A DNA stretch of 58,231 nucleotides from Blautia sp. GTDB lineage: Bacteria; Bacillota; Clostridia; Lachnospirales; Lachnospiraceae. Position numbers and translations under genes: made by a program. The stretch spans positions 1-58,231 of the forward strand of contig JAFTPT010000014.1 of NCBI GenBank assembly GCA_017463155.1. Reading direction: 5' to 3'. Numbering within the stretch: position 1 is the first letter of the stretch; each line of letters begins with the position of its first letter. Under the pieces are notes generated by a model that searched no databases, was not told where the DNA came from, and saw nothing but the letters and a program-made list of their open reading frames with translations. Below, one piece after another: positions 3,365-20,925 of this stretch.

Positions 3365-3401
3365 GGCGTCTTTGAGTGAATGGACTCGAAGACGCCTTTT
3401 T
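3365..3401 (+). terminator. Leader terminator between the promoter and nadE
   Basis: GGCGTCTTTGAGT and ACTCGAAGACGCC form a 13-bp stem with one G-U pair, followed by TTTTT. It begins only about 15 nt after the expected transcription start, so it would attenuate nadE-purF rather than end a preceding gene. No alternative antiterminator could be drawn with confidence. Confidence 0.65.
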
Positions 3402-3435
3402 CATTGGCACGGAACATAGCGAAGGAGGACATGCC

Positions 3436-3831
3436 GTGTTTCAAGCGAATAGAGTAAAAGACGAATGTGTGCAGTGGATCCGTGATTTCTTTTCCGAAAA
3501 CGGACCGGACTGCAATGCTGTGGTCGGGATCTCCGGCGGCAAGGACAGTTCTACCGTGGCGGCTCTCTGCGTGGAGGCGCTGGGCTTGCCGGAGGAACTG
3601 ATCGAGAAAACACCCATCGACGGGCTTTCCGGAATGACCGATGAAGAAAATCTCGGCTTCAGCTATCAGGAACTGGACCGGTATATCCGTACCGGCATGA
3701 TCGAAGACTCAGAGAAAAAACGCCGGATTGATCGGCTGCATGACGCGAACCTTTTCAAGCTGCAGCTCATGCCTGCTTTTGATCCGCATATCGCGATCCG
3801 TCATCCCGAATGTGAAAGGACAGGAACATGA
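3436..3831 (+). pseudogene. nadE: NAD+ synthase with a large in-frame internal deletion
   Basis: The frame is open but only 131 residues long, whereas NadE is usually about 250-270. The N-terminal half contains the ATP-pyrophosphatase loop SGGKDSST. After ...VEALG the sequence jumps straight to LPEELIEKTPIDGLSG, which in NadE lies near the C-terminus. The segment missing is roughly 110 residues that should hold much of the active site and the dimer interface. The joint sits in an Ala-Leu-Gly codon run, consistent with recombination between two short identical stretches. The GTG start has GGAGGACATGCC before it. The stop overlaps the purF start (ATGA). The product is very unlikely to be an active synthase; it may survive because it couples translation to purF. 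Confidence 0.8.
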
Positions 3832-5806: not shown

Positions 5807-5968
5807 TTCTTGTAAACAGAAATAGGGAATGACGATATGAAATATCATTGTTTTGGAACGAAACTGTGATTGAGAATTCTACCATATGTGAGGCGGATAG
5901 TTGACGTCGTCCCGATTAGGGATGGTTCGTTAAGTTATAGATTTGCTGCAAATAGACATGTAAATATG

Positions 5969-5997
5969 TTGCAAAAACTGCTGCAGAATGGTATCCT
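5969..5997 (+). promoter_or_regulatory. Promoter of the RelE-type toxin-antitoxin operon
   Basis: TTGCAA, 17 nt, TATCCT, ending 23 nt before the antitoxin start. The -10 overlaps ATCCT, which can pair with AGGAT at the ribosome binding site, a possible autoregulatory operator. Confidence 0.45.
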
Positions 5998-6019
5998 ATC
6001 TTTAAAGGAGGATGCGAAT

Positions 6020-6280
6020 ATGCCGAATATAAGACCAATATCTGACCTTCGTAATTATACAAGTGTTATTAAAGAAGTAAAATACGGAGAAAGAGTTTAT
6101 CTGACACGAAACGGTGTTGGTGAATGCGCAATCATTGATATGAGGGAGTTGGACGAACTTGATAAAATGATTGCATTACGTGGACTGATGAAAGATCTGG
6201 ATCGGGCAAAAGCCCGTGCGGATCGTGAAGGATGGATCGATGCAGATGAGGCAGAACGCATACTGGGGGTAGTAGATTGA
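6020..6280 (+). CDS. Phd/YefM-type antitoxin
   Basis: 86 residues. The N-terminus, NIRPISDLRNYTSVIKEV, is the typical Phd/YefM fold that binds operator DNA. It is followed by RVYLTRNGVGECAIID. The C-terminal acidic helix would wrap and neutralise the downstream toxin. The ATG at 6020 has AAAGGAGGATGCGAAT upstream; more upstream in-frame starts have no RBS. The stop codon overlaps the TTG start of the toxin, the usual coupled arrangement. Confidence 0.85.
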   Translation: MPNIRPISDLRNYTSVIKEVKYGERVYLTRNGVGECAIIDMRELDELDKMIALRGLMKDLDRAKARADREGWIDADEAERILGVVD

Positions 6281-6645
6281 AAAAAATAGTATATTCCCCG
6301 GATGCTATTGAGAAAATCCAGAAGATAGAGCGTCAGGTATGTGCGGAATATGGGGATAAAACAGCCCAGAAGGTAAAAAAAGCCATCACAGCAAGAATCC
6401 GTTCCCTCCAGTCTTTAGAAGAACAGGGTGTTTCCATGTATGATCTCTATGGAGTCACGCCGGATTACCGTCGGCTTTTTGTTGCGCACAACTATGTTTT
6501 CTATCTGATCGAGGGAGAAACGATACAGATCGTTAACCTGTATCACGAAAAAGAAGATTTTATGTACAAGCTGTTCGGTGTCAGCAGTGTGGATGAGGAG
6601 GCGGAAGCATACTGGGACGATATCGATTATGATGAGTCATTATAA
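6277..6645 (+). CDS. RelE/ParE-family toxin
   Basis: 122 residues with the RelE/ParE signature: YSPDAIEKIQKIE at the N-terminus, a central DLYGVTPDYRRLFVAHNYVFYLIE, and IVNLYHEKEDFMYKLFG near the end. Members are mRNA endonucleases or gyrase inhibitors acting in the cytoplasm. The start is a TTG overlapping the antitoxin stop. An acidic extension of about 15 residues after the LFG motif is slightly longer than typical. The frame is intact. Confidence 0.85.
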   Translation: MKKIVYSPDAIEKIQKIERQVCAEYGDKTAQKVKKAITARIRSLQSLEEQGVSMYDLYGVTPDYRRLFVAHNYVFYLIEGETIQIVNLYHEKEDFMYKLFGVSSVDEEAEAYWDDIDYDESL

Positions 6646-7489: not shown

Positions 7490-7546
7490 TTCCCCAACTT
7501 ATTCCCCATGTGTTATAATGCAAATATGGGGATTAAAGTTGGGGAA
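7490..7546. promoter_or_regulatory. Long dyad operator surrounding the -10 box of an AlbA_2 regulator gene
   Basis: The left arm TTCCCCAACTTATTCCCCAT (7490-7509) is mirrored by the right arm at 7526-7546, which reads ATGGGGAT, TAAA, GTTGGGGAA. A perfect TATAAT (7514-7519) lies in the 16-nt centre. The -35 region is poor (TTCCCC). The arms are probably binding sites for the gene's own product (inference), giving autoregulation. Confidence 0.65.
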
Positions 7547-7556
7547 AGGACCTTTT

Positions 7557-8936
7557 ATGAATATTAAATCAATTGTCTTGGAATTATGTTCGTATAATGA
7601 TGAACAGGAATGGTTCGAGTTTAAGGAGAACTGGTTTCAGCCGGAGGCATTGGGCGAGTATGTTTCTGCCCTGTCTAATGCGGCAGCATTTCATTACAGG
7701 GAATATGCGTATTTTGTATGGGGAGTTGCCAATGATACACACGAAATTGTCGGAACAGATTTCAATCAGTACCGTGAATACAACAAAGAGCCATATCAGA
7801 ATTATTTAGCCAGAAATCTGTCTCCGAGTATCAGTTTTTCGTTTGAGGAAACAATGATCGAGGGTAACCGTGTGGTTGTGCTTATTATACCAGCTGCAGA
7901 AGAGATTCCTACGGCATTCAGAGAGAAACGATATATTCGAATCGGTTCCTCCAAAGCCAGTCTGAAAGATTATCCGAAGCGGGAGATTCAGCTTTTTAAG
8001 ATTCTGGATAGAAGGACGGAAACCATCGAGACTTTGCCTGCAAAGTATCAGGAACTATCCTTTTCGAAATTGTTTGGCTATTATGGTTCAAAAGGAATTG
8101 TCCTGCGGGAAAAAACGTTCGTCAAAAACCTTGGTCTAAAAACCAGCAGAGGTGAGTATAATATGCTTGCCCAGCTTTTATCGGATGATTCCCATATTCC
8201 GATCCGTGTTTCGATTTTTGATGGCAAGACAAAAGGCTCCCCGCTGTTTTCTGTAAGGGAATTCGGCAACAACTGTCTGCTCTATAGTCTTGATGAACTA
8301 TTGCGTTACGGAGATGTTTTGAATCTGATCCAGACGGATGAAAGAGAACGGGTAGTGGAACGAAAGGAAGTTCCTTTGTTTGATAATAAAGCCTTTCGTG
8401 AGGCCGTTATCAATGCTGTACTGCACAATAAATGGGTCGAAGGGAACGAGCCGATGATCTCGGTTTTTTCCGATCGTATAGAGATTCTCTCCAGAGGAAC
8501 TATACCTCCTGCACAGACAATGGAAGGATTCTTTCTGGGAGAATCCATACCGGTTAATGAAAAGCTGTCGGAGATTTTCCTGCAGTTGCATATCAGTGAA
8601 AAATCCGGCAGGGGTGTGCCCAAGATCATTGAAGTCTATGGAAAAGACGCATTTACTTTCAGAGAAAACTCGATCGTTGTGACGATTCCCTTCCAGAGAA
8701 TTCATAATCCCCAGATCGCATTGGGGAATAAAACTGGGGATAAGAAGCCTTTGAATGAACGGCGCAGAAAAATCATTACAGAAATGAGAAATGATCCGAA
8801 TATCACTACTGCGCAGCTTCGAGTTATTCTTGGCTGTGCGGAAACAACTGTTGAGAATAATATTTCATACTTGCGTAAGAACGGCTATATAGAACGGGTC
8901 GGTTCAAGAAAAAGCGGGTATTGGAAAGTAATATAA
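7557..8936 (+). CDS. AlbA_2 (Schlafen-type) domain transcriptional regulator
   Basis: 459 residues. The N-terminal ~130 residues are the AlbA_2 domain (EQEWFEFKENWFQPEALGEYVSALSNAA ... RYIRIGSSKASL). A central HATPase-like region follows with AVLHNKWVEGNEPMISVFSDRIEILSRG, and a C-terminal winged helix (NITTAQLRVILGCAETTVENNISYLRKNGYIERVG). Such proteins are usually annotated as RecG-like or ATP-binding transcriptional regulators. The ATG at 7557 is preferred because the upstream in-frame ATG at 7518 lies inside the -10 box. The linker before the winged helix is coded by DNA that repeats the promoter dyad motif. Confidence 0.85.
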   Translation: MNIKSIVLELCSYNDEQEWFEFKENWFQPEALGEYVSALSNAAAFHYREYAYFVWGVANDTHEIVGTDFNQYREYNKEPYQNYLARNLSPSISFSFEETMIEGNRVVVLIIPAAEEIPTAFREKRYIRIGSSKASLKDYPKREIQLFKILDRRTETIETLPAKYQELSFSKLFGYYGSKGIVLREKTFVKNLGLKTSRGEYNMLAQLLSDDSHIPIRVSIFDGKTKGSPLFSVREFGNNCLLYSLDELLRYGDVLNLIQTDERERVVERKEVPLFDNKAFREAVINAVLHNKWVEGNEPMISVFSDRIEILSRGTIPPAQTMEGFFLGESIPVNEKLSEIFLQLHISEKSGRGVPKIIEVYGKDAFTFRENSIVVTIPFQRIHNPQIALGNKTGDKKPLNERRRKIITEMRNDPNITTAQLRVILGCAETTVENNISYLRKNGYIERVGSRKSGYWKVI

Positions 8937-8952: not shown

Positions 8953-9417
8953 ATGGATAAGAATGAGGTTAAATCCAAAAAGATATCCACCTCGGAACTG
9001 TGGGCAAAGCTGTTCAGGTCGGCTTCTGTAGAAAGATATCTTGCAGGAAGCGTGGACATGCAGGAATTGCCCTTGTTCTCTGAATATAATTCCATGCTTG
9101 CGGAGGAAAGAAACGAAAAAGCGGAAGCAGTGATCCGGCGGGGAGAAATAGAATCTTCCTTTGGACACAAGCTGTTTTCCGGGACAAGAAATCCGTCCCG
9201 CGATACGGTCCTGCAGCTTGCCTTTGGATTTGAACTGAATGCGGATGAAACACAGCAGCTCCTGAAGGTCGCCCGCGCAACAGCACTTCATCCGCGTGTG
9301 AAAAGAGATGCTGTCATCGCGTACTGCCTCCAGTATCACAGAACATTTATGGAAACACAGCAGCTTCTGTATGATAATCACCTGCCGTTGATAGGGGGAA
9401 AGAATGACAGATCGTGA
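8953..9417 (+). CDS. Helix-turn-helix protein paired with a Ser/Thr kinase
   Basis: 154 residues. The middle (IRRGEIESSFGHKLFSGTRNPSRDTVLQLAFGFELNADETQQLL in part) has the pattern of an Xre-like helix-turn-helix: recognition turn, then the 'LaLaf.L..de...LL' helix. The C-terminus is helical. GGGGGTG lies 6 nt before the ATG at 8953. It overlaps the following kinase gene by 14 bp, so the two are co-translated. It is a plausible regulator or phosphorylation target of the kinase. Confidence 0.7.
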   Translation: MDKNEVKSKKISTSELWAKLFRSASVERYLAGSVDMQELPLFSEYNSMLAEERNEKAEAVIRRGEIESSFGHKLFSGTRNPSRDTVLQLAFGFELNADETQQLLKVARATALHPRVKRDAVIAYCLQYHRTFMETQQLLYDNHLPLIGGKNDRS

Positions 9418-10786
9418 TGAACTTCTGCAATCTATTCTGGATTCCGACAGCAGCGCGGATTATCCTGCGGAGTTTCAGGAAAAGTATGTTTTGATGGAGT
9501 GCCTTTCGGAACAAAAAGGGATCACGACGTTCCTTGTACAGGATCCGGAAGGAAAGAACCATATCGCAAAATGCTATGAGCGCAATCTGTGGACGATCGC
9601 AGATAACAGCAGTCTACTGGACGGGTTGGATCATAAAGGCCTTCCAAAGTATACGGAATCGTTTGAGAACGAAAACGTGCTCATCACAGTCCGGGAATAT
9701 ATAGAAGGTCTGCCCTTGGACCGCTATGCGCAGGAGAATGAGCTATCCGTAAAAGAGATCACACGGATCTGCGCCAGGATCTGTGATATTCTCGCTTATC
9801 TCCATCATCGGGATGAGCCGATCATACACAGGGATATCAAGCCGCAGAACATCATTATCGGCCCGGACGGCAGCGTTTCTCTGATCGACTTTGATATTGC
9901 ACGGGTATATCGAAGCGGCCACGATACCGACACTGTGTTTTTCGGCACCCTCGCGTATGCGCCTCCGGAGCAGTACGGATTTGCACAGACAGACGCCAGG
10001 ACGGACATTTATTCTCTCGGGATTCTTCTGCGATGGCTTCTGACCGGAAGCACAAAAGAGAATAAGAACGTAAAAACATACCGGCCTCTGGATAAGATTA
10101 TCCGCAAGTGCACCGGTTTTGCGCCGAAGGACCGGTTTGCGGACGTTTCGCAGGTCAAAAAAGCACTTTTTTCGGCTAACCCGAGGTCACAGGCGGTTCG
10201 TCTGACATGCGTGATCCTCTGTGCCGCACTGGCAATCGGTGCTGTTTGTTATGGGGGCGTACGGCTTTACCGATATCTTACCTGGTCACCCTTTACAGAG
10301 GATGCAGTTCCCGCCTTCACTTCTGACGCGGACCGTGTCGAGGATGCCGTATCCTATATGAAGGAGAAGTACGGTACAACCATGTTCGATGAGACAGAAG
10401 ACACTGCAACGGTAGGAGATCTCCGTGCGGTCTTGACGGAACTCTACGGGTTTGACAGAGAATATGTCTACGGGATCAATGAGGATATGCCGCAGGAGAA
10501 CAATGCGTATTTTCTGCCATGGGGCTGGGATGAGGGGCAGACAGTTGACAGGGATATTGCTGTGTATGCTGCAGTGAAGGCACATGATCCGGCCATGGTG
10601 GCCGACTGGTCAAGCCTGAAGGATGATAACGGATACTATCCTGGCGTGCGTGTTGCTGTTGCTTTTGCGGAGGAACATGGAATCATGAACGGCGCAAATC
10701 ATCCGGGGGATATCCCGCTGGGCGAACTGGCCGTGATTTTTGCCAATACAGACCGGGTATTTGAAGCGGCGGAAACGGAAGAATAG
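9404..10786 (+). CDS. Membrane Ser/Thr protein kinase with S-layer-homology-like outer domain
   Basis: 460 residues. The cytoplasmic kinase domain spans about 25-255: Lys in HIAKCYE, the catalytic loop HRDIKPQNIII near residue 142, a Mg-binding LIDFDIARV (DFD rather than the usual DFG), and an activation segment GTLAYAPPEQYG. One membrane helix follows at about 266-288. The outer ~170 residues contain SLH-like features (VEDAVSYMKEKYG..., VRVAVAFAEEHGIMNG). It probably senses an envelope signal. The glycine-rich loop is degenerate. It overlaps the upstream HTH gene. Confidence 0.88.
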   Translation: MTDRDELLQSILDSDSSADYPAEFQEKYVLMECLSEQKGITTFLVQDPEGKNHIAKCYERNLWTIADNSSLLDGLDHKGLPKYTESFENENVLITVREYIEGLPLDRYAQENELSVKEITRICARICDILAYLHHRDEPIIHRDIKPQNIIIGPDGSVSLIDFDIARVYRSGHDTDTVFFGTLAYAPPEQYGFAQTDARTDIYSLGILLRWLLTGSTKENKNVKTYRPLDKIIRKCTGFAPKDRFADVSQVKKALFSANPRSQAVRLTCVILCAALAIGAVCYGGVRLYRYLTWSPFTEDAVPAFTSDADRVEDAVSYMKEKYGTTMFDETEDTATVGDLRAVLTELYGFDREYVYGINEDMPQENNAYFLPWGWDEGQTVDRDIAVYAAVKAHDPAMVADWSSLKDDNGYYPGVRVAVAFAEEHGIMNGANHPGDIPLGELAVIFANTDRVFEAAETEE

Positions 10787-10814
10787 AACTTTCGGAACTA
10801 CGAAATAGATTCTC

Positions 10815-10856
10815 AGAAAAGAAGATCAGACAGTTGATGCTGTCTGGTCTTTTCTT
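10815..10856 (+). terminator. Terminator after the kinase gene
   Basis: AGAAAAGAAGATCAGACAG is mirrored by CTGTCTGGTCTTTTCTTTCT around the loop TTGATG; the 3' arm itself is T-rich. A strong end to the HTH-kinase transcript. Confidence 0.8.
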
Positions 10857-10941
10857 TCTGTCTTTGCCAGGAAGATGGTAAAAGTGGACAGCCAGACCAG
10901 CCGATTTGGCGATCCTTCTGCTATGCTGAAAATGTATAACT

Positions 10942-11240
10942 ATGTGCAAAACCATCCATGCTGACCAGCCACAAGAGGCACTGAAGAATGAACCGTACGG
11001 GCCGGGCACTCGTACGCTCTACCTTTCTGCCCCTGATGACAAGTCGGCATGCTACAGGCTCGTACGCATGGACGGCTCGACGGAATTCATGGTACTGCTT
11101 TCGCCCGGAGAAGAGACAAGCAGGAGTTTCCCATGCGGACGGTATACCTTGAAGACGGCCGAGGGCTTACGAGATCAGTAGCGGTACCCGGGGTGATTTC
11201 TATTCCGATGATGCCGGCGGGTTCACAGGTCAGTAGTTAC
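10942..11240 (+). pseudogene. Frameshifted fragment of a small beta-sandwich protein
   Basis: The first frame reads TLYLSAPDDKSACYRLVR, then FPCGRYTLKTAEG, and stops at 11181. The downstream frame continues the expected pattern with GDFYSDDAGGF and stops near 11230. 'P.G.Y.L..A.G..WYG...FG' is a recurring pattern in Firmicutes secreted and TM-linked proteins. No RBS is evident. It is a decayed piece whose parent gene is not identified. Confidence 0.4.
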
Positions 11241-11253
11241 GGAGGTTTTCTAT

Positions 11254-12555
11254 ATGGATGATCAAGAATTGCTGCAGATGATGGTTGCCGAACCGTGGGA
11301 GCGGTATCGCCGCGCCGACCGCCGGGAAAAGCTCGCTCTGCTCCGGCACAGTTTTTCGATGTATATTCCCCATGCCGACAGAGGATATGAGTTCTTGCGT
11401 ATCGTTCTGGACGATCGCGCGGAACTGGAATACTCGGTCAATAAGGCGGCTGTAGTCGGCGACGACTACACTCTGAGGGGGTTTGTCCGCTTTGTGTTTG
11501 CGCTGGGAGAGGGCGAAACGAAAACGTTCGCATGGGTCACCGCAGATGGAATAAAAGAATGGATCCTGTCCCAGGATGATGCTGTACTCTACGTGAACGC
11601 TCCCGGGCTCGGTGAAGGCTTTTTCATCCGATACCTGGAATTCAGGGACGAATGCTTTGCGGCGTACGAAAAGCGCTACGGCTGGGGATACAATGCCGAA
11701 ATTCAAAAAATCGAAGTGCCCGCGCCGGATTATGATTTTCTTAAAACGCTGGATGTGCATAATGAATTTGAACTGGTCCGATTTCTTGATGACGGCGTGT
11801 CGTTTGAGACAACGGATGCGGATCGGTTGCTTCGATACATTGATGAGCAGAGACAGCGGGAAAAATCGTCGGAGGAACCGGATGAGGCTCGCCTCCGTTC
11901 TTTCCGCGACCTGCACGCAGCTATCTGGTACTTCGTAACAGAGCAAAAACGTCTGAGGAGAGCGATGAAGCTTCGCCCCACCACGGGCATCGAACTTTCA
12001 TATCTGAAAGACAACTGGGAAGAATGCGACTTCCGTTATAATGTCTCGACGGATCCGGACGATTGGCATGATGCGGTGTACCGCCGTTACGGAGATCTGC
12101 CGGACGGCAGTCATTTCGGCGTGTATATCTGGCCGAAGGCCGAAGCCTTTTCGCCTGCTTCAATAATGATGATCGTTGACAAGTCCGGAAAGATGCGGAC
12201 AAACACGGTGATCAAAGAAAGCTGGAATACTCAGAATTCAGTATTTTGGCCGCTGGCGGCAGCAGCTACCCCAAGCGGTAAAAGTATCGTTTGGCTCAAG
12301 GACGGCAAGATATGGGTCTGGCGTGAGGATAAGCAGGACAAACGCTTTCTGCCGGATGCCGGAGAAGAACTAACGGATCGTATCGAAGGGATCCCTGTTT
12401 ATGATGCCCTTATGTGTGACGACGGAATTCTGGTACTGTTTCAGGCCGGCAAAGTGTATGCATATCTATGCGATGAGGATATCGTGCTAGTCAAGTATGT
12501 GGACTGCCGGATACCCGCCGACACTGCGGAAGCAGTTCGGTTTGAGCAGTGTTGA
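11254..12555 (+). CDS. Unknown cytoplasmic protein, probably interrupted by an in-frame TGA
   Basis: 433 residues, no signal peptide or membrane segment. It is rich in Trp, Asp and Glu, with many short beta-strand-like stretches (FGVYIWPKAEAFSPASIMMIVD, in part) and a C-terminal region of repeated 'strand-turn' pattern (GKSIVWLKDGKIWVW). I do not recognise the family. GGAGGTTTTCTAT precedes the ATG. The reading frame continues after the TGA for 130 further codons into a leucine-rich-repeat segment. The natural protein may therefore be about 563 residues. It opens the run of colinear genes that includes the HD-RyR and TIR proteins. Confidence 0.6.
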   Translation: MDDQELLQMMVAEPWERYRRADRREKLALLRHSFSMYIPHADRGYEFLRIVLDDRAELEYSVNKAAVVGDDYTLRGFVRFVFALGEGETKTFAWVTADGIKEWILSQDDAVLYVNAPGLGEGFFIRYLEFRDECFAAYEKRYGWGYNAEIQKIEVPAPDYDFLKTLDVHNEFELVRFLDDGVSFETTDADRLLRYIDEQRQREKSSEEPDEARLRSFRDLHAAIWYFVTEQKRLRRAMKLRPTTGIELSYLKDNWEECDFRYNVSTDPDDWHDAVYRRYGDLPDGSHFGVYIWPKAEAFSPASIMMIVDKSGKMRTNTVIKESWNTQNSVFWPLAAAATPSGKSIVWLKDGKIWVWREDKQDKRFLPDAGEELTDRIEGIPVYDALMCDDGILVLFQAGKVYAYLCDEDIVLVKYVDCRIPADTAEAVRFEQC

Positions 12556-12945
12556 ATACCTGCCAACAAGGCGGAATCACCCTGCAGAAATGATTCATTT
12601 CCTGATATAAACCGTGTTGATTATTGGCCGGATTCATTTGCCGTCATGATTCGAAGCGAGGACGACGAATATGATTATTACAGCTGCGGCATCCGCCGTG
12701 TCTGCTTCGAGCCGGGGCTGGAGGTCATAAAGCCCGGCATGCTCGCAGACAATCCGGATCTTGAGTCTGTGACGATCCCGGCTTCGGTGAAAGAGGTTCA
12801 GTCGTGGGCCCTCGGCTGCTGTACGAATCTGAAAAACCTTGTGATCGAGGGCGACTTATCCCGCGTGGCGAATTGGTCGCGGGACGCCTTCGAAGGCTGC
12901 GCCTGCGAGGAAAAATATCTCTGTCTGCGCAGCGGCGGGCACTAA
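12556..12945 (+). pseudogene. Leucine-rich-repeat tail, in frame with the preceding gene beyond its TGA
   Basis: Start-to-start distance from 11254 to the first ATG here (12646) is 1392 nt, exactly 464 codons. No other stop lies between the TGA at 12553-12555 and 12943. The segment encodes IRRVCFEPGLEVIKPGML, then LESVTIPASVKEVQSWALG and LKNLVIEGDLSRV, a BspA-type LRR_5 pattern. The ATG at 12646 has no ribosome binding site. It is therefore best read as the detached C-terminal domain of the upstream protein, separated by a nonsense codon or by programmed readthrough. Confidence 0.6.
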
Positions 12946-12983
12946 TCGCCTCACGGGGCTTATACAGAGAAAGGAAGAAAGTT

Positions 12984-15032
12984 ATGGCATATACAGCTTT
13001 GCAGCAGATGAAAAACAGGAACGAGAAAGCGGTTGGGAAAGGCGTCGGCCCGATCCAGCCTGAGCGGCATTACGACTCCGTAGATCACGGGTTGAAAGCG
13101 ATGGCGCTGCGGTTTCTCCACGCAAGATGCGAAGAGCTCGGATTCGGTGCAGACGAGAAAGACTGCGCTTTTCACGGAACGAGCCTTTTACCGGGTCAGA
13201 TTCCATACAATATGCAGATGGACATAAATCGCCTGTGTCTGGAACGCGAACTCGAAAAATTCATCGATTCCGGCGCGGCGGAGGACGCCTACACCGTTTA
13301 TTACTGCTATCTGGAAATGTTCTTCGGGCATTACGGCAAATCGAAAAAGATGGTGGAGCTGCTCTCCGAGTTCGAGTCCAACGGCAGTTCTCTGCTCATG
13401 AAGCACCGCGATCACTATTCCCATTCGGTCTACGTTTTTGCGCTGGGACTGGCGATCTACGAATCCAATGACGCCTTCCGCGCAGGCTTCAAACGCTTCT
13501 ATGGCTTTGATACGGACGGGGCAAAAACAGATGTTGACCATGCGGCGGCATGCTGTTTTCTGGAATACTGGGGGCTGACGTCTCTGTTCCATGATATCGG
13601 CTATCCCTTTGAGCTTCCGTTTGAGCAGGTGCTCTCTTACTACGAGGTAGCGGGCAGGAAGCGCGGCGAGGGCAGCCTGTTTCTCACCTATAGGGATGTG
13701 GACGCGATCACAAAGCTGGGAGAGCAAGCAAAGGAGCAGTTTATAAAGATTTACGGACGCCCTTTTGAAACCACGGAGGAGCTTTTTGCCTTCGGTGTCA
13801 CCGAGAAGCTCGGCGCGGCGTATGACTTTACGGAAGAATATATGCTCTGCAAGATTCACGATAAGCCCATCGCGCCGGACACTTTCAACTATTTCATGGA
13901 TCATGCGTATTTCAGCGCGACGCGGCTCTACCGTGAGATCGAAAACTCGATCGGGATCGAAAAGATCAACGAAAAGCACGTGGACGCTCTGACGGCGATC
14001 CTGCTGCACAACAGTTTTTTCAAGTTTGCCGTTTCCTTCTTTAATGGTAAAAACTATAAACGACCGTTGCGGATGGACGAGCATCCGCTTGCATTCCTTC
14101 TCATACTCTGCGACGAGCTGCAGTGCTGGGATCGTACGGCTTACGGCAGGAATTCCCGTACCGAGCTGCATCCGATGGCGGCGGATTTTGATTTTAAGAA
14201 CAATGCGATCCATGCAATTTATTATTTCGACAAGGACGAGCAGGAAAAAATCGACACTTTCAAGGTCCGGTACCGCAAATGGGAAGACGACGGCGAAGTG
14301 GGCAAAGTGCCCCGTCTGAAAGCCTACAGCGATATGGCAGAGAAGGAGCAGCGGTTTGCTTCGGATATCGAAAAGATCGTGGACCTTGCGGATATTCCCC
14401 TCACGGTCGTTCCCGGCACCCGTGCAGTAGATCGAAAGAGCAAACACACCTACCTTTCGACAAGTAATTTCCTGCACTTGTATGATTTTGCCGTGGCGCT
14501 GAATGCGCGCTATTCCCATCAGGGTGAAGAGAAAGACATCGAGACAGAGGCGCTCGAAAAGGAATTTGAAGCGCTCTCTTTGGAATATCAGCTTTCCAAC
14601 ATCAATCAGGCGAAGAGCTTCGCTCGGTATCTCGATGCGCTGGGCTGCTTCTACACCGACCGTCCGGTAGATTATGAAATGGTCGCCGCCTTCACGAAAA
14701 ACCAGATGGAAGTGTTTGCACCGATGGAGCATGAACGCTGGATCAGGGAGCATATCGCCATGGGCTGGATCAGCGGCGACCTCTACGAAACGGCACCGAT
14801 TTCGGACGAAATGCTTCGCCGATACGGCGATGAAAAGACTGCCCGCAATGCCCTTCGGGAGCAGTTCCGTATGCACAAGCTGGCGATGGACGGCGCACCG
14901 AAACAGGCTGAGATCTTCGCTCACTATGCGGCACTGCCGCTTGAAGAACGGGAAAAAGACTATGAGCCCTTCAACAGTATGCTGAAGCTTATCAAAGAAT
15001 TTGACGGGCTTCGAATCTACAAGCTTGATTAA
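12984..15032 (+). CDS. HD-hydrolase-like protein with C-terminal RyR domain
   Basis: 682 residues, cytoplasmic. An HD-type metal site can be traced: HYSHSVYVF (His144/His147), LFHDIGYPFE (His203-Asp204), ILLHNSFF (His342) and LILCDELQCWDR (Asp377). The last ~100 residues match the RyR domain: MEHERWIREHIAMGW (about 581-595), then HYAALPLEEREKDYEPF and a final GLRIYKLD. HD domains cleave phosphate esters or cyclic nucleotides. Bacterial RyR domains occur in nucleotide-signalling conflict systems and probably bind a nucleotide (family knowledge). The ATG at 12984 has AAGGAAGAAAG upstream. It is followed closely by four small genes and a TIR gene. Confidence 0.8.
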   Translation: MAYTALQQMKNRNEKAVGKGVGPIQPERHYDSVDHGLKAMALRFLHARCEELGFGADEKDCAFHGTSLLPGQIPYNMQMDINRLCLERELEKFIDSGAAEDAYTVYYCYLEMFFGHYGKSKKMVELLSEFESNGSSLLMKHRDHYSHSVYVFALGLAIYESNDAFRAGFKRFYGFDTDGAKTDVDHAAACCFLEYWGLTSLFHDIGYPFELPFEQVLSYYEVAGRKRGEGSLFLTYRDVDAITKLGEQAKEQFIKIYGRPFETTEELFAFGVTEKLGAAYDFTEEYMLCKIHDKPIAPDTFNYFMDHAYFSATRLYREIENSIGIEKINEKHVDALTAILLHNSFFKFAVSFFNGKNYKRPLRMDEHPLAFLLILCDELQCWDRTAYGRNSRTELHPMAADFDFKNNAIHAIYYFDKDEQEKIDTFKVRYRKWEDDGEVGKVPRLKAYSDMAEKEQRFASDIEKIVDLADIPLTVVPGTRAVDRKSKHTYLSTSNFLHLYDFAVALNARYSHQGEEKDIETEALEKEFEALSLEYQLSNINQAKSFARYLDALGCFYTDRPVDYEMVAAFTKNQMEVFAPMEHERWIREHIAMGWISGDLYETAPISDEMLRRYGDEKTARNALREQFRMHKLAMDGAPKQAEIFAHYAALPLEEREKDYEPFNSMLKLIKEFDGLRIYKLD

Positions 15033-15044
15033 AGGAGCGCAGTT

Positions 15045-15398
15045 ATGGAGCAGCAGCTTACGGATCTTGAATATTCAAACACAGATGCGACGGTCGAGCA
15101 GGTCAAAGCCGCGATCTGTGCGGCAAAAGTTATTATGCAGCGACCGCTTCCTCTTACGCAAGCTTCTCCTGAAATTGCTCTGGTGGGTTATAAGGAAGAA
15201 GCAACCGGACGGTACAAGCTTCTCAAAGAATTCCGTGTATTTCAGACGGGAGCGCTGTTTGCCTCCATGATGGCGATGGACGGGCATGTGCGTTTGATTG
15301 CGCTGCGGCACATGACGCGGGAGGAGTATGAGTCGGTTAAGCCGGGGGACTTGCCTCGCTATCGGGTGTATGAGGAAATTACGGCGGACGGACAATAA
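15045..15398 (+). CDS. Small unknown protein in the HD-RyR/TIR gene run
   Basis: 117 residues, soluble, alpha/beta composition. The N-terminal half contains VEQVKAAICAAKVIMQ (a likely helix) and the second half RYKLLKEFRVFQTGALFASMM. No recognised motif. AAGGAGCGCAGTT lies just before the ATG, 12 nt after the HD-RyR stop, so it is in the same operon. It may be an accessory subunit (inference). Confidence 0.6.
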   Translation: MEQQLTDLEYSNTDATVEQVKAAICAAKVIMQRPLPLTQASPEIALVGYKEEATGRYKLLKEFRVFQTGALFASMMAMDGHVRLIALRHMTREEYESVKPGDLPRYRVYEEITADGQ

Positions 15399-15419
15399 AC
15401 GATGAAGGGAGGGTATCCC

Positions 15420-15632
15420 GTGGCGGAACAGATATTCATTATCGAAGACGGAACTTTGACAAAGTTCGAATGCGACGACTATGTCGAAGTGGTATGTATA
15501 CCGGACATATACGGAAAACCAGGCAGTGAAGCCGAACGATATACAAAAGACAATTACTGGCGTTTCAACGAACACATTACCGATTTTCGGGAGATCAAAA
15601 CCGACGCCGGGAAACTGGAAGGAGAATCATGA
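15420..15632 (+). CDS. Small protein resembling a BspA-LRR C-terminal cap
   Basis: About 70 residues from a GTG start with AGGGAGGGTATCCC upstream; an in-frame ATG at 15402 would lie on the RBS itself. It contains VEVVCIPDIYGKPGSEAERYT, close to the 'IYG..GS.AE.YAK..' end cap seen after LRR_5 repeats. Its stop overlaps the ATG of the TIR gene (ATGA), so translation is coupled. It may be a free capping module or the remnant of a longer LRR protein. Confidence 0.5.
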   Translation: MAEQIFIIEDGTLTKFECDDYVEVVCIPDIYGKPGSEAERYTKDNYWRFNEHITDFREIKTDAGKLEGES

Positions 15633-16618
15633 TGAAAAATCAGAAGGATATGCAGACGAGACTGGTCCCTGGAGTGGGACGTATGCCATACCCGGCGTAT
15701 CGCGGAAAGGAACCCTACGTCTTTATAAGCTATGCGCGCTTGGATTCAGAACAAGTGTTTGCGGAGATCAAACGATTCAACGAGGCGGGGTTTCACGTCT
15801 GGTATGACGAGGGGATCGCTCCGGGCAACGAATGGTCGGATGCGATCGCTGAAGCGCTGTCAAACTGTTCCGTGTTTGTCGTCTTGCTGACACCGACATC
15901 TGCCCCACGCGAGAACGTTCTCAACGAGATCGACTATGCGCTGAACGAAGAAAAGCCATTTCTCGCTATCTATCTTGACGAAACGACGCTGCCTCCTGGT
16001 TTGAAGCTGCGCATCTCCCGGAAGCAGGCAATTCTCAAGTACAATATGTCGGAAGAAGAATACGAGTATAAATACATAGAGGCGTTCACCCAATTCGGAC
16101 TGAAACGAAATGAAACTGCGTCGCCCGCTGTTAACGCAACTCAAAGCTCGGCACCTTCCGCCACGTCTTCTGAGGCTGCAACCCCATCTCCAAAGAATGA
16201 GGAAGTACATGACGACTCGCCGGAAGACGCAAAAAAAAGAGCTAACGGTGATCTGGTGCGCGTTGACGGCTTTGATATCGAACACGGCCTTTTAAGAGGC
16301 TACTATGGAACAGATAAGAATATCACAGTGCCGCGTGCAGCCAAAATCATCGGAACCAGTTCCTTTGACGGATGCCGCCTGTTTATTGAGTCTGTTGATC
16401 TGAATCAGGCGGGGAAGATCATTGCCGGACCATTATTTGGAGGATTCAGAAATTGCCCGAATCTTAAGACAGTCAAGATTCCGGAGACCGTGGATGAAGT
16501 CAGACCGGAGATGTTTCACAACTGTCCGAATCTGACAATCTATGTCCATAGAAGTCAGCTTTCTCCGGATTTTGAAAAGCATTTCACGGGTAAAGATATC
16601 GTCTATCTTGATGAATAA
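15629..16618 (+). CDS. TIR-domain protein with C-terminal leucine-rich repeats
   Basis: 329 residues, no signal peptide. The TIR domain spans about 28-165: PYVFISYARLDSEQVF (box 1), VWYDEGIAPGNEWSDAI, CSVFVVLLTPTSA, and ENVLNEIDYAL, where Glu100 sits at the usual NADase glutamate. A Ser/Pro/Ala-rich linker at about 172-200 leads to an LRR_5 region (IIGTSSFDGCRLFIESVDL, LKTVKIPETVDEVRPEMF). Prokaryotic TIR proteins commonly degrade NAD+ or make cyclic ADP-ribose signals. A TIR fused to a repeat sensor looks like a receptor-effector. It is coupled to the preceding LRR-cap gene. Confidence 0.88.
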   Translation: MMKNQKDMQTRLVPGVGRMPYPAYRGKEPYVFISYARLDSEQVFAEIKRFNEAGFHVWYDEGIAPGNEWSDAIAEALSNCSVFVVLLTPTSAPRENVLNEIDYALNEEKPFLAIYLDETTLPPGLKLRISRKQAILKYNMSEEEYEYKYIEAFTQFGLKRNETASPAVNATQSSAPSATSSEAATPSPKNEEVHDDSPEDAKKRANGDLVRVDGFDIEHGLLRGYYGTDKNITVPRAAKIIGTSSFDGCRLFIESVDLNQAGKIIAGPLFGGFRNCPNLKTVKIPETVDEVRPEMFHNCPNLTIYVHRSQLSPDFEKHFTGKDIVYLDE

Positions 16619-16632
16619 GGGGTGTTGATCAC

Positions 16633-16923
16633 ATGTCCTGCTGGAGAGAACAACACGTTTTACGTATGCCGGCGACGACGATCGGCATTTATACAAAAGA
16701 AGAATGGGAAGAGTTTTATTCCAAACTCTGTAAGAAGACTGACTGGAGCGCCGGATCATTCGCGCCCGCCCTTTGTTCCTATAAAAACGGACCGATGATC
16801 GATTATATCCTTGTGGACAGCGCCCCCGTGGAAGGCGGCGGATATAAAATGTCTGCAAGGGACGAAGTACACTATTGTGAATACAAATGGTACGACGCCA
16901 CGGAAGCGCCGTACTGTTACTGA
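16633..16923 (+). CDS. Unknown 96-residue protein
   Basis: Soluble, rich in Tyr, Trp and Cys, with IGIYTKEEWEEFYSKLCKK as a predicted helix and IDYILVDSAPVEGG as strands. No family recognised. GGGGTGTTGATCAC precedes the ATG, 14 nt after the TIR gene. Position and size fit an accessory or immunity-like protein of the TIR module (inference). Confidence 0.5.
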   Translation: MSCWREQHVLRMPATTIGIYTKEEWEEFYSKLCKKTDWSAGSFAPALCSYKNGPMIDYILVDSAPVEGGGYKMSARDEVHYCEYKWYDATEAPYCY

Positions 16924-16931
16924 GATTGGAT

Positions 16932-17471
16932 ATGGGTGTAAAGATTTACAGAGACGATAACTGGAACAGGATCAAAAGCGGCATTATCTCCCGTAAGGAT
17001 ATCATGCACCTTAACAGAGAGAAGGACAAAGTGCTGATCGGATACCTGATTGCCCACGCTACGGAGCCGTGCCGCCAGTCCATGATGAAGTACGCTGCGG
17101 AGAAATACGGCTTGTATGACTTTCCTGAGCAACAAAAGAACATCGACGACCCGAACGATCCTTACTATGAAGAATACTTTGTTCTACAGGAGCAGGTCAT
17201 CCGGGAAGACGATGCAGACGTGCTGAAAGAAGTGGCGCTTCATAGTTCCGATTACGATATGGCTGCATTCGCGTTCTGCCGGCTCACCGGATACCGCTTT
17301 CCTCCGAGCGAGTGCGACGCTTACAGTTATCGCACATTCGACTGCGGGATTCTGCCCGGAATGACAGCAGAGGATATCCGGGAGTTTTGCCGGAAGGTGA
17401 TCGAGGAAAGGGGAAGATTTGCGAATGTGGCTGAAGAATGCCTGCGTCATCAAAAAGATCCCAATCAATAA
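16932..17471 (+). CDS. Unknown 179-residue helical protein
   Basis: Predicted mostly helical, with short repeats of about 35 residues (VLIGYLIAHATEPCRQSMMKYAA; VLKEVALHSSDYDMAAFAFCRLTG), reminiscent of HEAT-like repeats. This likeness is my inference. The ATG at 16932 lies 8 nt after the preceding stop with only a weak RBS. Its 3' end overlaps the next gene by more than 50 bp, which is unusual and leaves one of the two boundaries uncertain. Confidence 0.5.
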   Translation: MGVKIYRDDNWNRIKSGIISRKDIMHLNREKDKVLIGYLIAHATEPCRQSMMKYAAEKYGLYDFPEQQKNIDDPNDPYYEEYFVLQEQVIREDDADVLKEVALHSSDYDMAAFAFCRLTGYRFPPSECDAYSYRTFDCGILPGMTAEDIREFCRKVIEERGRFANVAEECLRHQKDPNQ

Positions 17472-17967
17472 TGCGGCTGCGGCAGGATCAGATCCCAATG
17501 TTGCAGGGTTTATCGAGAAGGCGACCCAAACGCTTGGGAAAAAGGGCCGTTTCGTTATAAAGCTCTCGGGAATACCGCAGGAAAACAGCGTCCTTGCCGA
17601 AGGAAAAAGCGAAAGGCTTTGTAATCATTGCATTGAGGAGTTTGAAAAGCTGCTGATAAAAAAGGGTTATATGGATCATGAACACGTCTGGGAAACCCTG
17701 CAGGAAACAGATTACGGAGAAATGGATTACAACTCTTATGGCGGGGGCGTAGAACATTTCGTCGTCACCCTGTATCGCTGCCGCTTGTGTGGTGCTCTGC
17801 ACAAGGAGTGCCGGGGAGATTTCTGCGGAGATCCGGAGGAATATCTTGAAATAACGGACACCGACATTGCAATTGCAGAGCGATCAAGCATGCAAACAAG
17901 TGGAAAACCGAATACTACAGGTTGGGTTTCTATATTCCCTGGCATAGAGCCAAGTGGTAAGACGTAA
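17419..17967 (+). CDS. Unknown protein with Cys-rich C-terminal ribbon
   Basis: Up to 182 residues; the start is uncertain (TTG 17419 or ATG 17425, no clear RBS). The stretch LGKKGRFVIKLSGIPQENS, followed by VLAEGKSERLCN, faintly resembles the last domain of phosphoglucosamine mutases ('GRV.VR.SGTEP..RVM.EG'), with the SGTEP loop changed. The C-terminus has CRLCG and DFCGD, a possible zinc ribbon. Could be a degenerate or repurposed domain. It ends the gene run. Confidence 0.4.
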   Translation: MRMWLKNACVIKKIPINNAAAAGSDPNVAGFIEKATQTLGKKGRFVIKLSGIPQENSVLAEGKSERLCNHCIEEFEKLLIKKGYMDHEHVWETLQETDYGEMDYNSYGGGVEHFVVTLYRCRLCGALHKECRGDFCGDPEEYLEITDTDIAIAERSSMQTSGKPNTTGWVSIFPGIEPSGKT

Positions 17968-18583: not shown

Positions 18584-18802
18584 ATGGGCAAACTGAAAGA
18601 ACTGGAACAATTAAAAGAAGAAAGCGGGTTAAGCTGGCGGAAATTTGCGGAATCCTTCGGGATCCCTTACAGAACCTTGCAGGACTGGCATCTGGGCAAC
18701 CGCCCGATGCCGGAGTATATCCTGCGTCTTATGGTATATAAGGTGGAGACGGAAAGACTCCTCAAAGAACACAAAATCGATAAAGGCGGTGATTCAGCAT
18801 GA
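18584..18802 (+). CDS. Small helix-turn-helix protein paired with AlbA_2 regulator
   Basis: 72 residues. LKEESGLSWRKFAESFGIPY, followed by RTLQDWHLGNRPMP, is a compact HTH of the kind that reads 'W+.fae.fgip.rT..dW..G.R.p'. Its stop overlaps the AlbA_2 gene start (ATGA), giving a coupled two-gene operon. The start has no RBS but sits at the probable transcription start, suggesting leaderless translation. A truncated copy of the same gene occurs at 21381. Confidence 0.75.
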   Translation: MGKLKELEQLKEESGLSWRKFAESFGIPYRTLQDWHLGNRPMPEYILRLMVYKVETERLLKEHKIDKGGDSA

Positions 18803-20286
18803 AGACGGCTGCTGATATCAGGAGCTTGCTGCAAAAGGGTGAAAAAAATGATCTGGAGTGCAAGGAGGCTGAAAAACAGATCCCGCGCTCCATTTATGAA
18901 ACGTATTCTTCTTTTGCGAATACTGACGGCGGCACTATCCTGCTCGGAGTACAGGAAGATAAGAGCGCAATAGACCCGGCAAAACGTTTCCTGGTTATCG
19001 GAGTTACTGATCAGGAAAAGCTTATCTCCGATTTTTGGAATACGATCAATGGCAGCAAAGTAAACGCAAATATTCTTATTGATGAAAATGTCTACCCGCT
19101 GGAGATCGATGGTCGTCCGATCGTCGTGATAGAAGTACCGCGGGCGGATTATATGATGCGGCCGGTCCATACCGGAGAAAATCCCTTCAAAGGATCCTTC
19201 AAGAGGAACCATGAGGGCGATTATCACTGTTCCGAGGCGGAAGTGCGCGCCATGATCCGCGACCAGAATGAGAGTGGCAATGATAGTCTCCTTCTGGATT
19301 ATTACACAATGGATGACATTGATCTGGAAACACTTCATCGTTACCGCAACCGATTCCGTGTTGTGAACGAGGACAATGTCTGGAACGCGCTGCCGGACAA
19401 GGATTTCCTGGAGGCATTGGGCGGATATCGCTATGATCGGTGCAAGAAGTCAGAAGGTCTTACCATGGCCGGCCTTCTGATGTTTGGTAAAGGACTTCCG
19501 ATCCGGGATGTGTTCGATATGATCAATATGGATTACCGGGAAGAAACCGATGTTTCTTTTGATGTCCGCTGGAATGACCGCATCACCTATGACGGCACAT
19601 GGGAGAACAACCTTTTCAATTTCATCCAGAAGGTCATGCCGAAGCTGACCGCTGATCTTCCGAAGCCTTTCCGAATGGAAGGGATCCTGAGGGAGGACGA
19701 TACGCCATTACATAAAGCCTGCCGGGAAGCAATGATCAACATGATTATTCATGCTGATTTTCAGGGTGAAGGTACGCTCAAAGTGATCAAGCACCGGGAT
19801 CGTTTTGAGTTCACAAATCCCGGCACTTTGAAGATCCCAAAGGAAATGATCTACAAGGGCGGTAACTCCAAGGCCAGGAATCCGCGGATGCAGACCATGC
19901 TCCGGATGATCGGATACGGAGATACTGCGGGCTCCGGTTTTCCTACGATTCTGGCAGCCTGGGCAGAGAAAGGCTGGCCGGAACCTGATCTCGCGGAAGA
20001 TACTATATTGAATCAGGTTACGCTGACTTTACGGTTGGGGACGAATGATGGGGTTGAATCGACCTCAAGCTCAACCCCAAAGACGCCCCCAAAGGGAGAT
20101 GATGCACTCAGAAACGTGGTTCTTACTTTGATCAGAAGCAATGATACAATTACAAAAAAAGAGATTGCCGAAAAGACAGGTGTTACCATGTATGCTGTCA
20201 AAAAGATTATTTCCGAACTCAGGGAAGATGGAAAAGCTGAATTTGTCGGACATAGCAGGAACGGGAAATGGATCATTCATGAATGA
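18799..20286 (+). CDS. AlbA_2 (Schlafen-type) ATP-binding transcriptional regulator
   Basis: 495 residues. The N-terminal AlbA_2 domain has NDLECKEAEKQIPRSIYETY, then SSFANTDGGTILLGV. A central HATPase_c_4-like region contains HKACREAMINMIIHADFQGEG, then FEFTNPGTLKIP. The C-terminal winged helix is NDTITKKEIAEKTGVTMYAV plus a following helix. It is related in layout to the protein at 7557 but diverged. The linker before the winged helix is Ser/Thr/Pro-rich and its DNA carries a G-run/C-run dyad (20035-20092). The operon is bracketed by perfect 57-bp repeats, suggesting acquisition as a cassette. Confidence 0.87.
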   Translation: MKTAADIRSLLQKGEKNDLECKEAEKQIPRSIYETYSSFANTDGGTILLGVQEDKSAIDPAKRFLVIGVTDQEKLISDFWNTINGSKVNANILIDENVYPLEIDGRPIVVIEVPRADYMMRPVHTGENPFKGSFKRNHEGDYHCSEAEVRAMIRDQNESGNDSLLLDYYTMDDIDLETLHRYRNRFRVVNEDNVWNALPDKDFLEALGGYRYDRCKKSEGLTMAGLLMFGKGLPIRDVFDMINMDYREETDVSFDVRWNDRITYDGTWENNLFNFIQKVMPKLTADLPKPFRMEGILREDDTPLHKACREAMINMIIHADFQGEGTLKVIKHRDRFEFTNPGTLKIPKEMIYKGGNSKARNPRMQTMLRMIGYGDTAGSGFPTILAAWAEKGWPEPDLAEDTILNQVTLTLRLGTNDGVESTSSSTPKTPPKGDDALRNVVLTLIRSNDTITKKEIAEKTGVTMYAVKKIISELREDGKAEFVGHSRNGKWIIHE

Positions 20287-20538: not shown

Positions 20539-20557
20539 ATTGGTGCGAGGTAATGTA

Positions 20558-20925
20558 ATGCCAAAATTTGAAGTGGAGTTCTATGAGACTTCCAATGGTG
20601 ATCAGCCGGCAAAGGAATTTCTGCTCTCCCTGGATAAGAAGATGCGGGCAAAAATGGCAGACACGATCAGCATTTTGCAGGATAATGGATATGAACTCAG
20701 GGAACCATATAGCAAACACCTGTCTGAGGGAATTTTTGAATTAAGAGCAAAAGTCGGTTCTGATATTACAAGAGTTCTGTATTTCTTTTATGTTGAGCGG
20801 CATATCATACTGACAAACTGACAAACGGTTTTATCAAGAAGACACAGAAGACCCCGCCGAAAGAAATCGAACGGGCAAAGAAATATCGCGCAGACTATCT
20901 GCGCAGGAAGGAGAGCAACCAGTGA
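20558..20925 (+). pseudogene. higB: HigB/Gp49-like toxin broken by an 8-bp tandem duplication
   Basis: From the ATG at 20558 the frame encodes KFEVEFYETSNGDQPAKEFL and the rest of a HigB (phage Gp49-like) toxin, but stops at 20821 after 87 residues. CTGACAAA is present twice in a row (20810-20817, 20818-20825). Removing one copy restores the frame through [20 protein letters not shown] to a TGA at 20923, giving 119 residues, the normal family length. The truncated product lacks the C-terminal strand and helix needed for RNase activity. The restored stop overlaps the GTG start of higA, which confirms the ancestral frame. Slippage could make the gene revertible. Confidence 0.85.

Follow-up and report, generated by a model that had tools for sequence, protein, structure and literature searches.

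What a ryanodine-receptor (RyR) domain does in a bacterial cell is the question raised by a gene cluster of Blautia sp. on contig JAFTPT010000014.1 (58,231 nucleotides). This stretch, hereafter the window, is the entire contig C13 of a 3.07-Mb genome. One gene of the cluster encodes a protein with a putative HD-type hydrolase region and a C-terminal RyR domain, here called HD-RyR, and a gene for a TIR protein with leucine-rich repeats (LRR) stands close by. The pairing of TIR and HD-RyR recurs in many distantly related gut bacteria. We tentatively favour a Thoeris-like TIR pathway, in which the RyR domain would read a TIR-made ADP-ribose signal and thereby control an HD-type hydrolase as effector. 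An opposite role of HD-RyR as an eraser of the signal is weighed below, as are two readings that give the TIR gene a lesser part.

TIR genes adjoin HD-RyR genes in gut bacteria

Relatives of HD-RyR were taken from a collection scan as the best 80 of 398 matches (58-95% identity over the best segment), and all 80 were used in the locus counts. They derive mainly from metagenome-assembled genomes (MAGs) of the ruminant gut, and the labels among these best 80 include Lachnospiraceae, Oscillospiraceae, Erysipelotrichaceae, Clostridia, Christensenella, Chloroflexi/Flexilinea and others. TIR open reading frames (ORFs), located with a home-made profile and single-sequence searches seeded by five TIRs from these same loci, are concentrated next to HD-RyR. 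Within 1 kb, 45 were found in 151.4 kb of sequence (0.297/kb), 44 of them on the same strand. The interval of 1-2 kb yielded 7 in 138.0 kb, 3 of which share the strand of HD-RyR; that of 2-4 kb yielded 4 in 246.7 kb, and that of 4-7 kb 2 in 317.3 kb (0.006/kb). Between 7 and 10 kb there was none in 278.4 kb. Of the 80 loci, 44 have a same-strand TIR no more than 2 kb from HD-RyR, as do 36 of the 56 well-flanked ones, in which the sequence extends at least 2 kb to either side. The TIR stands upstream in some loci and downstream in others; the side was not part of the counts. When the window proteins themselves served as tblastn queries, the TIR recurred beside HD-RyR at 45/80 loci and was the sole window protein to recur widely there. 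On the genome scale, a TIR_2 domain is present in 46 of 49 HD-RyR genomes, TIRs adjoining HD-RyR included, versus 25 of 61 related genomes. The co-occurrence of TIR and HD-RyR is far beyond chance.

The partner of HD-RyR is variable. Beyond the 44 loci with a same-strand TIR, 12 of the 80 encode a membrane protein within 2 kb, the long form of which (L044) weakly matched YAcAr/SLOG at 7.1e-6 and DUF4231 at 6.8e-5, both under the cut-off. We call this protein SLOG-SLATT-like, the SLATT label being read from the sequence. Its gene is present at 8 of the 56 well-flanked loci, 2 of which also carry an opposite-strand TIR. On a quick HD-RyR tree, in which 30 of 81 inner branches are weakly supported, a minimum of 24 changes of partner type is required; for the type of same-strand TIR considered by itself, the minimum is 11. 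Partner classes were defined here as clusters of whole same-strand TIR proteins, SLATT-like and none, and 12 partnerless loci with short flanks were excluded from the count of changes. With cruder labels, assigned by the best-scoring seed, the count was 27; such labels separated nearly identical TIRs and took in those on the opposite strand.

The preliminary description had proposed that the whole gene set of 8953..17967 forms a single module. This did not hold. Both pieces of a split LRR gene and the small proteins recur at only 3-6 of the 80 loci each, and homologues of the helix-turn-helix (HTH)-like protein and of the kinase occur at 4 (plus L089) and 9 loci, respectively. The HTH-kinase pair lies 5' of HD-RyR in L009, L056, L072 and L078, directly upstream in the last three. 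Gene calls in the related loci are mechanical, and some opposite-strand ORFs among them are spurious. We take the conserved core to be the two-gene unit of HD-RyR and TIR.

HD-RyR is rare, being found in 5/391 genomes of the class and 3/64 of the genus, counts that include the genome of the window. Such a patchy spread, together with the mobile-type contig L089 and the swapping of partners, is typical of conflict systems. It argues against a pathway of cellular stress or developmental signalling, as opposed to defence, with the LRR protein, the kinase and the HTH protein as its main components. This explanation, which we regard as the least probable of those considered, can draw on the kinase, PP2C and LRR genes at some related loci and on the result that no PADLOC model matches HD-RyR or the scanned small proteins.

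RyR, TIR and SLOG-SLATT-like genes elsewhere in the class

The linkage was also approached from the RyR domain in general. PF02026 was found in 26 of the 391 class genomes at 29 places, 28 of which were examined with up to 8 kb on each side; the twenty-ninth (G120:C141) was seen only as the 3.85-kb locus L003, with no TIR there by eye. Several RyR contigs end early, and L142 and L148 are shorter than 5 kb. Nine of the 28 places have a Pfam-supported TIR at a distance of about 1 kb or less (L113, L126, L127, L128, L130 with the TIR on the other strand, L131, L132, L134 and L135). These comprise 7 of 10 strong stand-alone RyR genes and 2 of 3 distant HD-RyR genes, with 0 of 15 among the others. 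The TIR background of the 61 related genomes (47 TIR_2 matches in 177 Mb, 13 of them in one genome) predicts a neighbouring TIR at about 0.04 of 28 places.

In L134 and L135 a distant HD-RyR gene (24-28% identical to that of the window) is followed, 13 and 3 bp on, by a TIR_2+LRR_5 gene for a protein of 321 and 312 amino acids (aa), respectively, with the same architecture as the window TIR. No other effector candidate was seen by eye in these two loci. The notion that distant HD-RyR genes stand alone was discarded, as wider stretches show a TIR beside two of the three.

Other RyR-TIR loci differ in their third component. L113 (2118-8982) and L126 (2489-10227) each encode a TIR, a stand-alone RyR protein and a large protein in which a RyR-like stretch and, at the end, a Card1-like nuclease are weakly matched. 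The kinase call for the large protein comes from Pfam in L113 and from weak PADLOC matches in L126; a PP2C phosphatase was assigned by Pfam in L126 and by eye in L113. The two loci represent a candidate TIR-RyR system in which a nuclease would be the effector. In L131 (2152-7378) and L132 (1-4658), a protein that by eye is of membrane type, and whose C-terminal domain is RyR-like, is encoded just ahead of a stand-alone RyR gene and then a TIR-LRR gene in a tightly packed row. RyR-like stretches in larger proteins beside TIR, as in L113, L131, L132 and more weakly L126, give the layout expected of receptor-effectors.

The remaining RyR carriers are of other kinds. L138, one of the 15 others, encodes a weaker small RyR protein. 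Among L136, L137, L139 and L140-L150, those read are AAA-ATPase-like or channel/RCK-like and carry the RyR domain at the C-terminus; L136 and L137, and L140, L145 and L146, were judged AAA-ATPase-like and channel-like by eye. In the examined stretches of L136, L137, L139 and L140-L150 no TIR was found.

With a TPR-type TIR as query, matches were obtained in 9/391 genomes. Of 13 places, 10 were fetched, one (G254:C66) is identical to L125, and two hits to TPR repeats were left out. One of the 10 loci, L113, has the stand-alone RyR gene next to the kinase gene with the RyR-like stretch. SLOG-SLATT-like genes were found in 2/391 genomes of one genus, both with an adjoining TIR gene. The two genes overlap in L122 (6413-10514) and abut in L123 (4199-8338). 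WD40 repeats of the adjoining TIR are Pfam-confirmed for L122 only, and Pfam names no domain in the SLOG-SLATT-like protein of that locus. We regard this unit as a separate candidate for a minimal TIR/SLOG-SLATT system.

Domains and pocket residues

Is the RyR domain of the window protein genuine? Its Pfam RyR match (7.5e-5, 23.3 bits) is under the Pfam cut-off of 27.4, and the PF02026 family search of the window's own genome did not pick the protein up. PF02026 was matched at E 0.01 or better by 37 of 71 HD-RyR relatives (best 2.8e-16). We take the assignment as real because ryanodine-receptor chains of the PDB are recovered (best 1.2e-9) with a profile built from these 71 proteins. The initial call of an HD-hydrolase-like protein with an RyR domain is thus borne out in its RyR part, and the HD part is a call by motif. 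The segments RDHY.HS, FHD.GYP, DH, LLHN and CDE are invariant; H144, H203, D204, H307, H342 and D377 are kept in all 81 proteins (window plus 80 relatives) and H147 in 80 of them. These residues conform to the H...HD...D metal motif of the HD superfamily. The Pfam HD model reached 0.013 at best, in 3 of 11 HD-RyR members, and searches of PHROGs and NCBIfam with HD-RyR gave nothing informative.

TIR proteins of this kind make immune signals from NAD+. The window TIR is the sole TIR_2 match in its genome and is also matched by the ThsB_TIR model at 2.8e-6, above the cut-off. Its Glu100 falls in a column that we take, from known TIR motifs and a pairwise alignment, to be that of the catalytic Glu of TIR NADases. 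Most TPR-type TIRs have a Glu two columns further on; the TPR and WD40 labels of related TIRs were derived by scanning only representatives with Pfam.

Phage RyR proteins bind or cleave the TIR signals 2'cADPR and 3'cADPR (PMC13232231, a preprint of 2026). According to the part of the preprint available to us, H75, W78 and D117 are the signal-handling residues of the phage protein RyDEP, with H75/D117 as catalytic dyad and H100 as phosphate contact. Other phage homologues tested did not cleave the signals, and 6/8 bound them (PMC13232231). The same part of the preprint mentions no RyR genes beside bacterial TIR genes. RyDEP is DyoEdafos gp78, has the PDB code 35TM in the preprint, and matches Pfam RyR at 5.8e-8. 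In alignment A2 (n=71: the window, 66 of the 80 relatives and four distant HD-RyR proteins), H75, W78 and D117 correspond to H583, W586 and D659 of the window protein and are identical in 71/71, the four distant members included. Counting the window and all 80 loci, the three residues are identical in 81/81. They are likewise kept in all 10 strong stand-alone bacterial RyR proteins, in which position 100 is His in three and Thr or Ser in seven. The three with His are L128 and the two strong stand-alone proteins L124 and L129, both without a TIR neighbour, which is too few to test.

The dyad, being made up of the signal-cleaving residues of RyDEP, fits an opposite function equally well. HD-RyR could be an off switch: the RyR domain would cleave or trap the cyclic ADP-ribose signal, the HD part would clear the product, and self-poisoning would be averted; phages would have acquired such genes as RyDEP. 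We consider this possible, if on the doubtful side, and nearly as likely as a reader function since the dyad is kept (in the window and 80 HD-RyR proteins, the 4 distant ones and 10/10 strong stand-alone ones) and stand-alone RyR genes occur beside TIR. The latter (7/10) have no effector domain of their own, and some loci hold HD-RyR together with a SLOG-SLATT-like candidate effector. However, the two-gene loci L134 and L135 show no second effector by eye, though the TIR itself could deplete NAD+, and an eraser has no evident purpose in the 3/49 genomes where no TIR_2 was found. Nor is the dyad proof of cleavage, because the phage homologues other than RyDEP bound (6/8) without cleaving in the part of the preprint available to us (PMC13232231).

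A candidate TIR pathway with an RyR domain as receptor

Thoeris consists of the TIR protein ThsB and of ThsA, which joins SIR2 and SLOG; other types exist. From the gene linkage, the domain matches and the conserved residues we infer an analogous scheme, its biochemical steps, the HD fold and the role in anti-phage defence included. An infection or stress cue, perhaps sensed via the LRR part of the TIR protein, would cause the TIR to turn NAD+ into an ADP-ribose-type signal. Binding of the signal to the RyR domain would switch on, or release, the fused HD-type metal hydrolase, the presumed effector, which might attack nucleotides or nucleic acid. RyR would take the role of SLOG in ThsA, and HD that of SIR2. 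Where present, the SLOG-SLATT-like membrane protein may be a second, alternative effector, and the HTH-kinase pair and the small proteins could be optional regulators. RyR as reader and HD as effector are favoured because the Thoeris-like layout fits HD-RyR and because RyR-like stretches occur in kinase/nuclease-like and membrane-type proteins beside TIR.

At the outset the TIR had been proposed to make a messenger that HD-RyR would read or erase. Conserved adjacency and the pocket residues shared with RyDEP lend support to this proposal, and under either the reader or the eraser reading the RyR domain appears to be tied to TIR signalling. With somewhat more reserve we suggest a wider view. 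RyR may be a general bacterial receptor, in some forms an eraser, for TIR-made ADP-ribose signals. HD-RyR/TIR would be one form of a TIR immune family new to the literature searched, other forms having RyR-like domains in nuclease-kinase or membrane proteins, and phage RyDEP would have been captured from such operons. RyR domains inside bacterial TIR operons suggest an origin of the phage RyR proteins and make RyR a candidate receptor or eraser of TIR signals other than SLOG or macro. The pairing also bears on why an animal calcium channel has the same nucleotide pocket, and it makes the role of cellular bacterial RyR domains reducible to a two-gene test.

Several observations weigh against the favoured pathway. 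As to chemistry, a sequence search of the PDB with the HD part returned no HD chain, so that the chemistry of the effector is a guess. The position aligned with the phosphate-contacting H100 of RyDEP is variable and is His in 0/71 HD-RyR proteins. Candidates for taking its place are R625, R629 and H631 in the insert, which are invariant in alignment A3. The catalytic-Glu column is Glu in only 38 of 59 aligned TIRs, the window's included. As to linkage, no TIR was found at L124, L129, L138 (small RyR), L133 (distant HD-RyR) and 14 other RyR genes. At L125, a TPR-TIR relative beside a stand-alone RyR gene is not called TIR by Pfam. HD-RyR is present at 0/10 TPR-TIR loci and 0/2 SLOG-SLATT-like loci. 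Taken together, the RyR-, TIR- and SLOG-SLATT-anchored results indicate that HD-RyR usually has a TIR, and that TIR does not require HD-RyR.

Partnerless HD-RyR genes belong to the same group of observations. In 10 of the 56 well-flanked loci, both a TIR and a SLATT-like gene are missing from the 2 kb around HD-RyR, a further 2 have an opposite-strand TIR only, and 3 of the 49 HD-RyR genomes, nearly all MAGs, show no TIR_2 match. One of the 10 loci, L026, lies among genes reading as glycolysis and other housekeeping functions, and its genome shows no TIR_2 match; L029 is another locus in which neither kind of partner gene was found. The condition set beforehand for rejecting the proposed module, absence of co-occurrence elsewhere or a housekeeping setting, was checked: co-occurrence is strong in diverse genomes, with the 10 partnerless loci and the housekeeping setting of L026 as exceptions. 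The partnerless loci are also what would be expected if HD-RyR were a nucleotide hydrolase acting independently, its gate being ADP-ribose-like or adenine nucleotides that build up during infection, and if its frequent but not obligatory linkage to TIR reflected clustering in defence islands. The AlbA_2/Schlafen-like and toxin-antitoxin genes in the flanks of the window would agree with this. We nevertheless judge such independence improbable, given that the TIR mostly adjoins HD-RyR directly and on the same strand rather than lying loosely near it, and that the pairing with TIR-LRR_5 persists at 24-28% identity.

Relation to known systems

The favoured pathway resembles Thoeris in that a TIR gene stands beside a gene whose product combines a putative enzymatic domain with one that would bind an ADP-ribose signal. 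In contrast to Thoeris, the ligand domain is RyR, the enzyme is HD-type, and the TIR carries LRR_5 (TPR or WD40 in relatives). Searches for SIR2, SLOG, macro and caspase domains gave no match in the module proteins except for PADLOC models hitting the TIR itself (Pfam and PADLOC; P0011 Pfam only). With RyDEP, HD-RyR shares the RyR domain (PF02026) and the aligned H75, W78 and D117. Unlike RyDEP, it is cellular, fused to HD, devoid of H100 and furnished with an insert in the main clade, and it is encoded beside TIR rather than used against TIR.

If the reader-effector reading is true, HD-RyR would be similar to the HD-domain dGTPase CloA of Clover, an HD nucleotide hydrolase effector under nucleotide control (PMC12265719). 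The partner in Clover is a nucleotidyltransferase and not a TIR, and the term RyR is absent from the text of that paper available to us; the two were compared by description only. TIR-SLATT neighbourhoods (PMC9503650, PMC7159879) likewise combine TIR with a predicted membrane effector, as do our loci with SLOG-SLATT-like genes beside TIR or HD-RyR. No RyR term occurs in the accessible parts of these two papers, and the window has no SLOG-SLATT-like gene; two SLOG-SLATT-like probes found no match in the window's genome in a search without positive control there. The CapK/CapS pair, a kinase and a DNA-binding protein upstream of immune operons, recalls the HTH-kinase pair, but as far as the portion of the paper at hand goes (PMC13373217), CapK is GHKL-type and CapS STAS-wHTH, whereas the window kinase is Hanks-type (Pkinase). 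For an eraser, type III CRISPR offers a parallel by logic only in its ring nucleases, cellular signal erasers that viruses also carry; the signal is a different one (PMC7213978, PMC12830947). Among the literature matches listed, nothing joins bacterial RyR or HD-RyR with TIR operons; an earlier prediction is possible.

The gene cluster in the window and its surroundings

A gene-by-gene check confirmed the gene order, the coordinates and the tight packing up to position 17967 given in the preliminary description (Table 1), the intergenic distances between 12945 and 16633 being 38, 12, 3, -4 and 14 bp. The call of a TIR-LRR protein was likewise upheld by Pfam. Other calls stood in part. Of the HTH-kinase pair, the kinase is clear, whereas no Pfam HTH model matched the HTH-like protein at E 1; its relatives elsewhere in the same genome are weak (30-33%). 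The terminator proposed behind this pair exists as a stem, but the region contains 12 terminator-like sites against a mean of 9.4 (standard deviation 3.6) in shuffled sequences, which is not clearly an excess. The LRR and small-protein genes are present, but a 433-aa protein and an LRR fragment, described as two, belong to one split gene, which in L009 and L010 forms a single ORF of 548-565 aa. Furthermore, the 76-aa protein is an LRR_5 remnant, lacking 294 bp relative to L009 and L089 that correspond to the LRR body.

Table 1. Features of the HD-RyR/TIR gene cluster in the window
Feature	Position	Strand	Remarks
HTH-like protein, 154 aa	8953..9417	+	Accessory; probable regulator of the cluster; HTH call from the preliminary description
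Ser/Thr (Hanks-type) protein kinase	9404..10786	+	Pfam Pkinase (PF00069) 7.4e-29; accessory; one membrane segment (by eye)
Terminator-like stem-loop between kinase and LRR gene	10820..10853	+	Consensus match only
LRR-containing protein, split by in-frame stop	11254..12945	+	ORFs 11254-12555 and 12646-12945; LRR_5 6.6e-8 in 12646-12945
HD-RyR protein, 682 aa	12984..15032	+	Divergent HD-type region (H144/H147, H203-D204, H307, H342, D377) and C-terminal RyR (H583, W586, D659)
Small accessory protein, 117 aa	15045..15398	+	Homologues at 3/80 HD-RyR loci and in L089
Remnant of small LRR_5 protein, 76 aa	15402..15632	+	LRR body absent
TIR-LRR_5 protein, 329 aa	15629..16618	+	Pfam TIR_2 3.8e-17, LRR_5 1.4e-8
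Small accessory protein, 96 aa	16633..16923	+	Homologues at 3/80 HD-RyR loci
Small accessory protein, about 180 aa	16932..17471	+	Start codon picked by comparison with L011; 5/80 loci
Small accessory protein, about 180 aa	17425..17967	+	Start codon uncertain; 6/80 loci

Mobility of the module is suggested by L089, an IMG/VR contig listed as viral, in which recombinase, actin-like and MobA/MobL relaxase genes lie upstream of the HTH-like gene and HD-RyR. Given these recombinase and relaxase genes, we take the module to be capable of moving with a mobilizable element. HD-RyR as a plasmid gene was dismissed, as no plasmid record matched. It does not seem to be an ordinary phage gene either, the matches being just one unverified 8.3-kb faecal 'phage' record (40%) and L089, read as a mobilizable element.

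In the window, AlbA_2/Schlafen and RecG-C-like genes lie on either side of the module (7518-8936 and 18799-20286). A Phd/ParE-like pair occupies 5870-6645, and 20540-20821 holds a Gp49-like gene. Further upstream, at 3376-3831, a short ORF of 151 aa resembles NAD synthase, being matched in two pieces by Pfam NAD_synthase (1.3e-15), and seems to lack the middle of the enzyme; it precedes a gene that by eye is purF-like.

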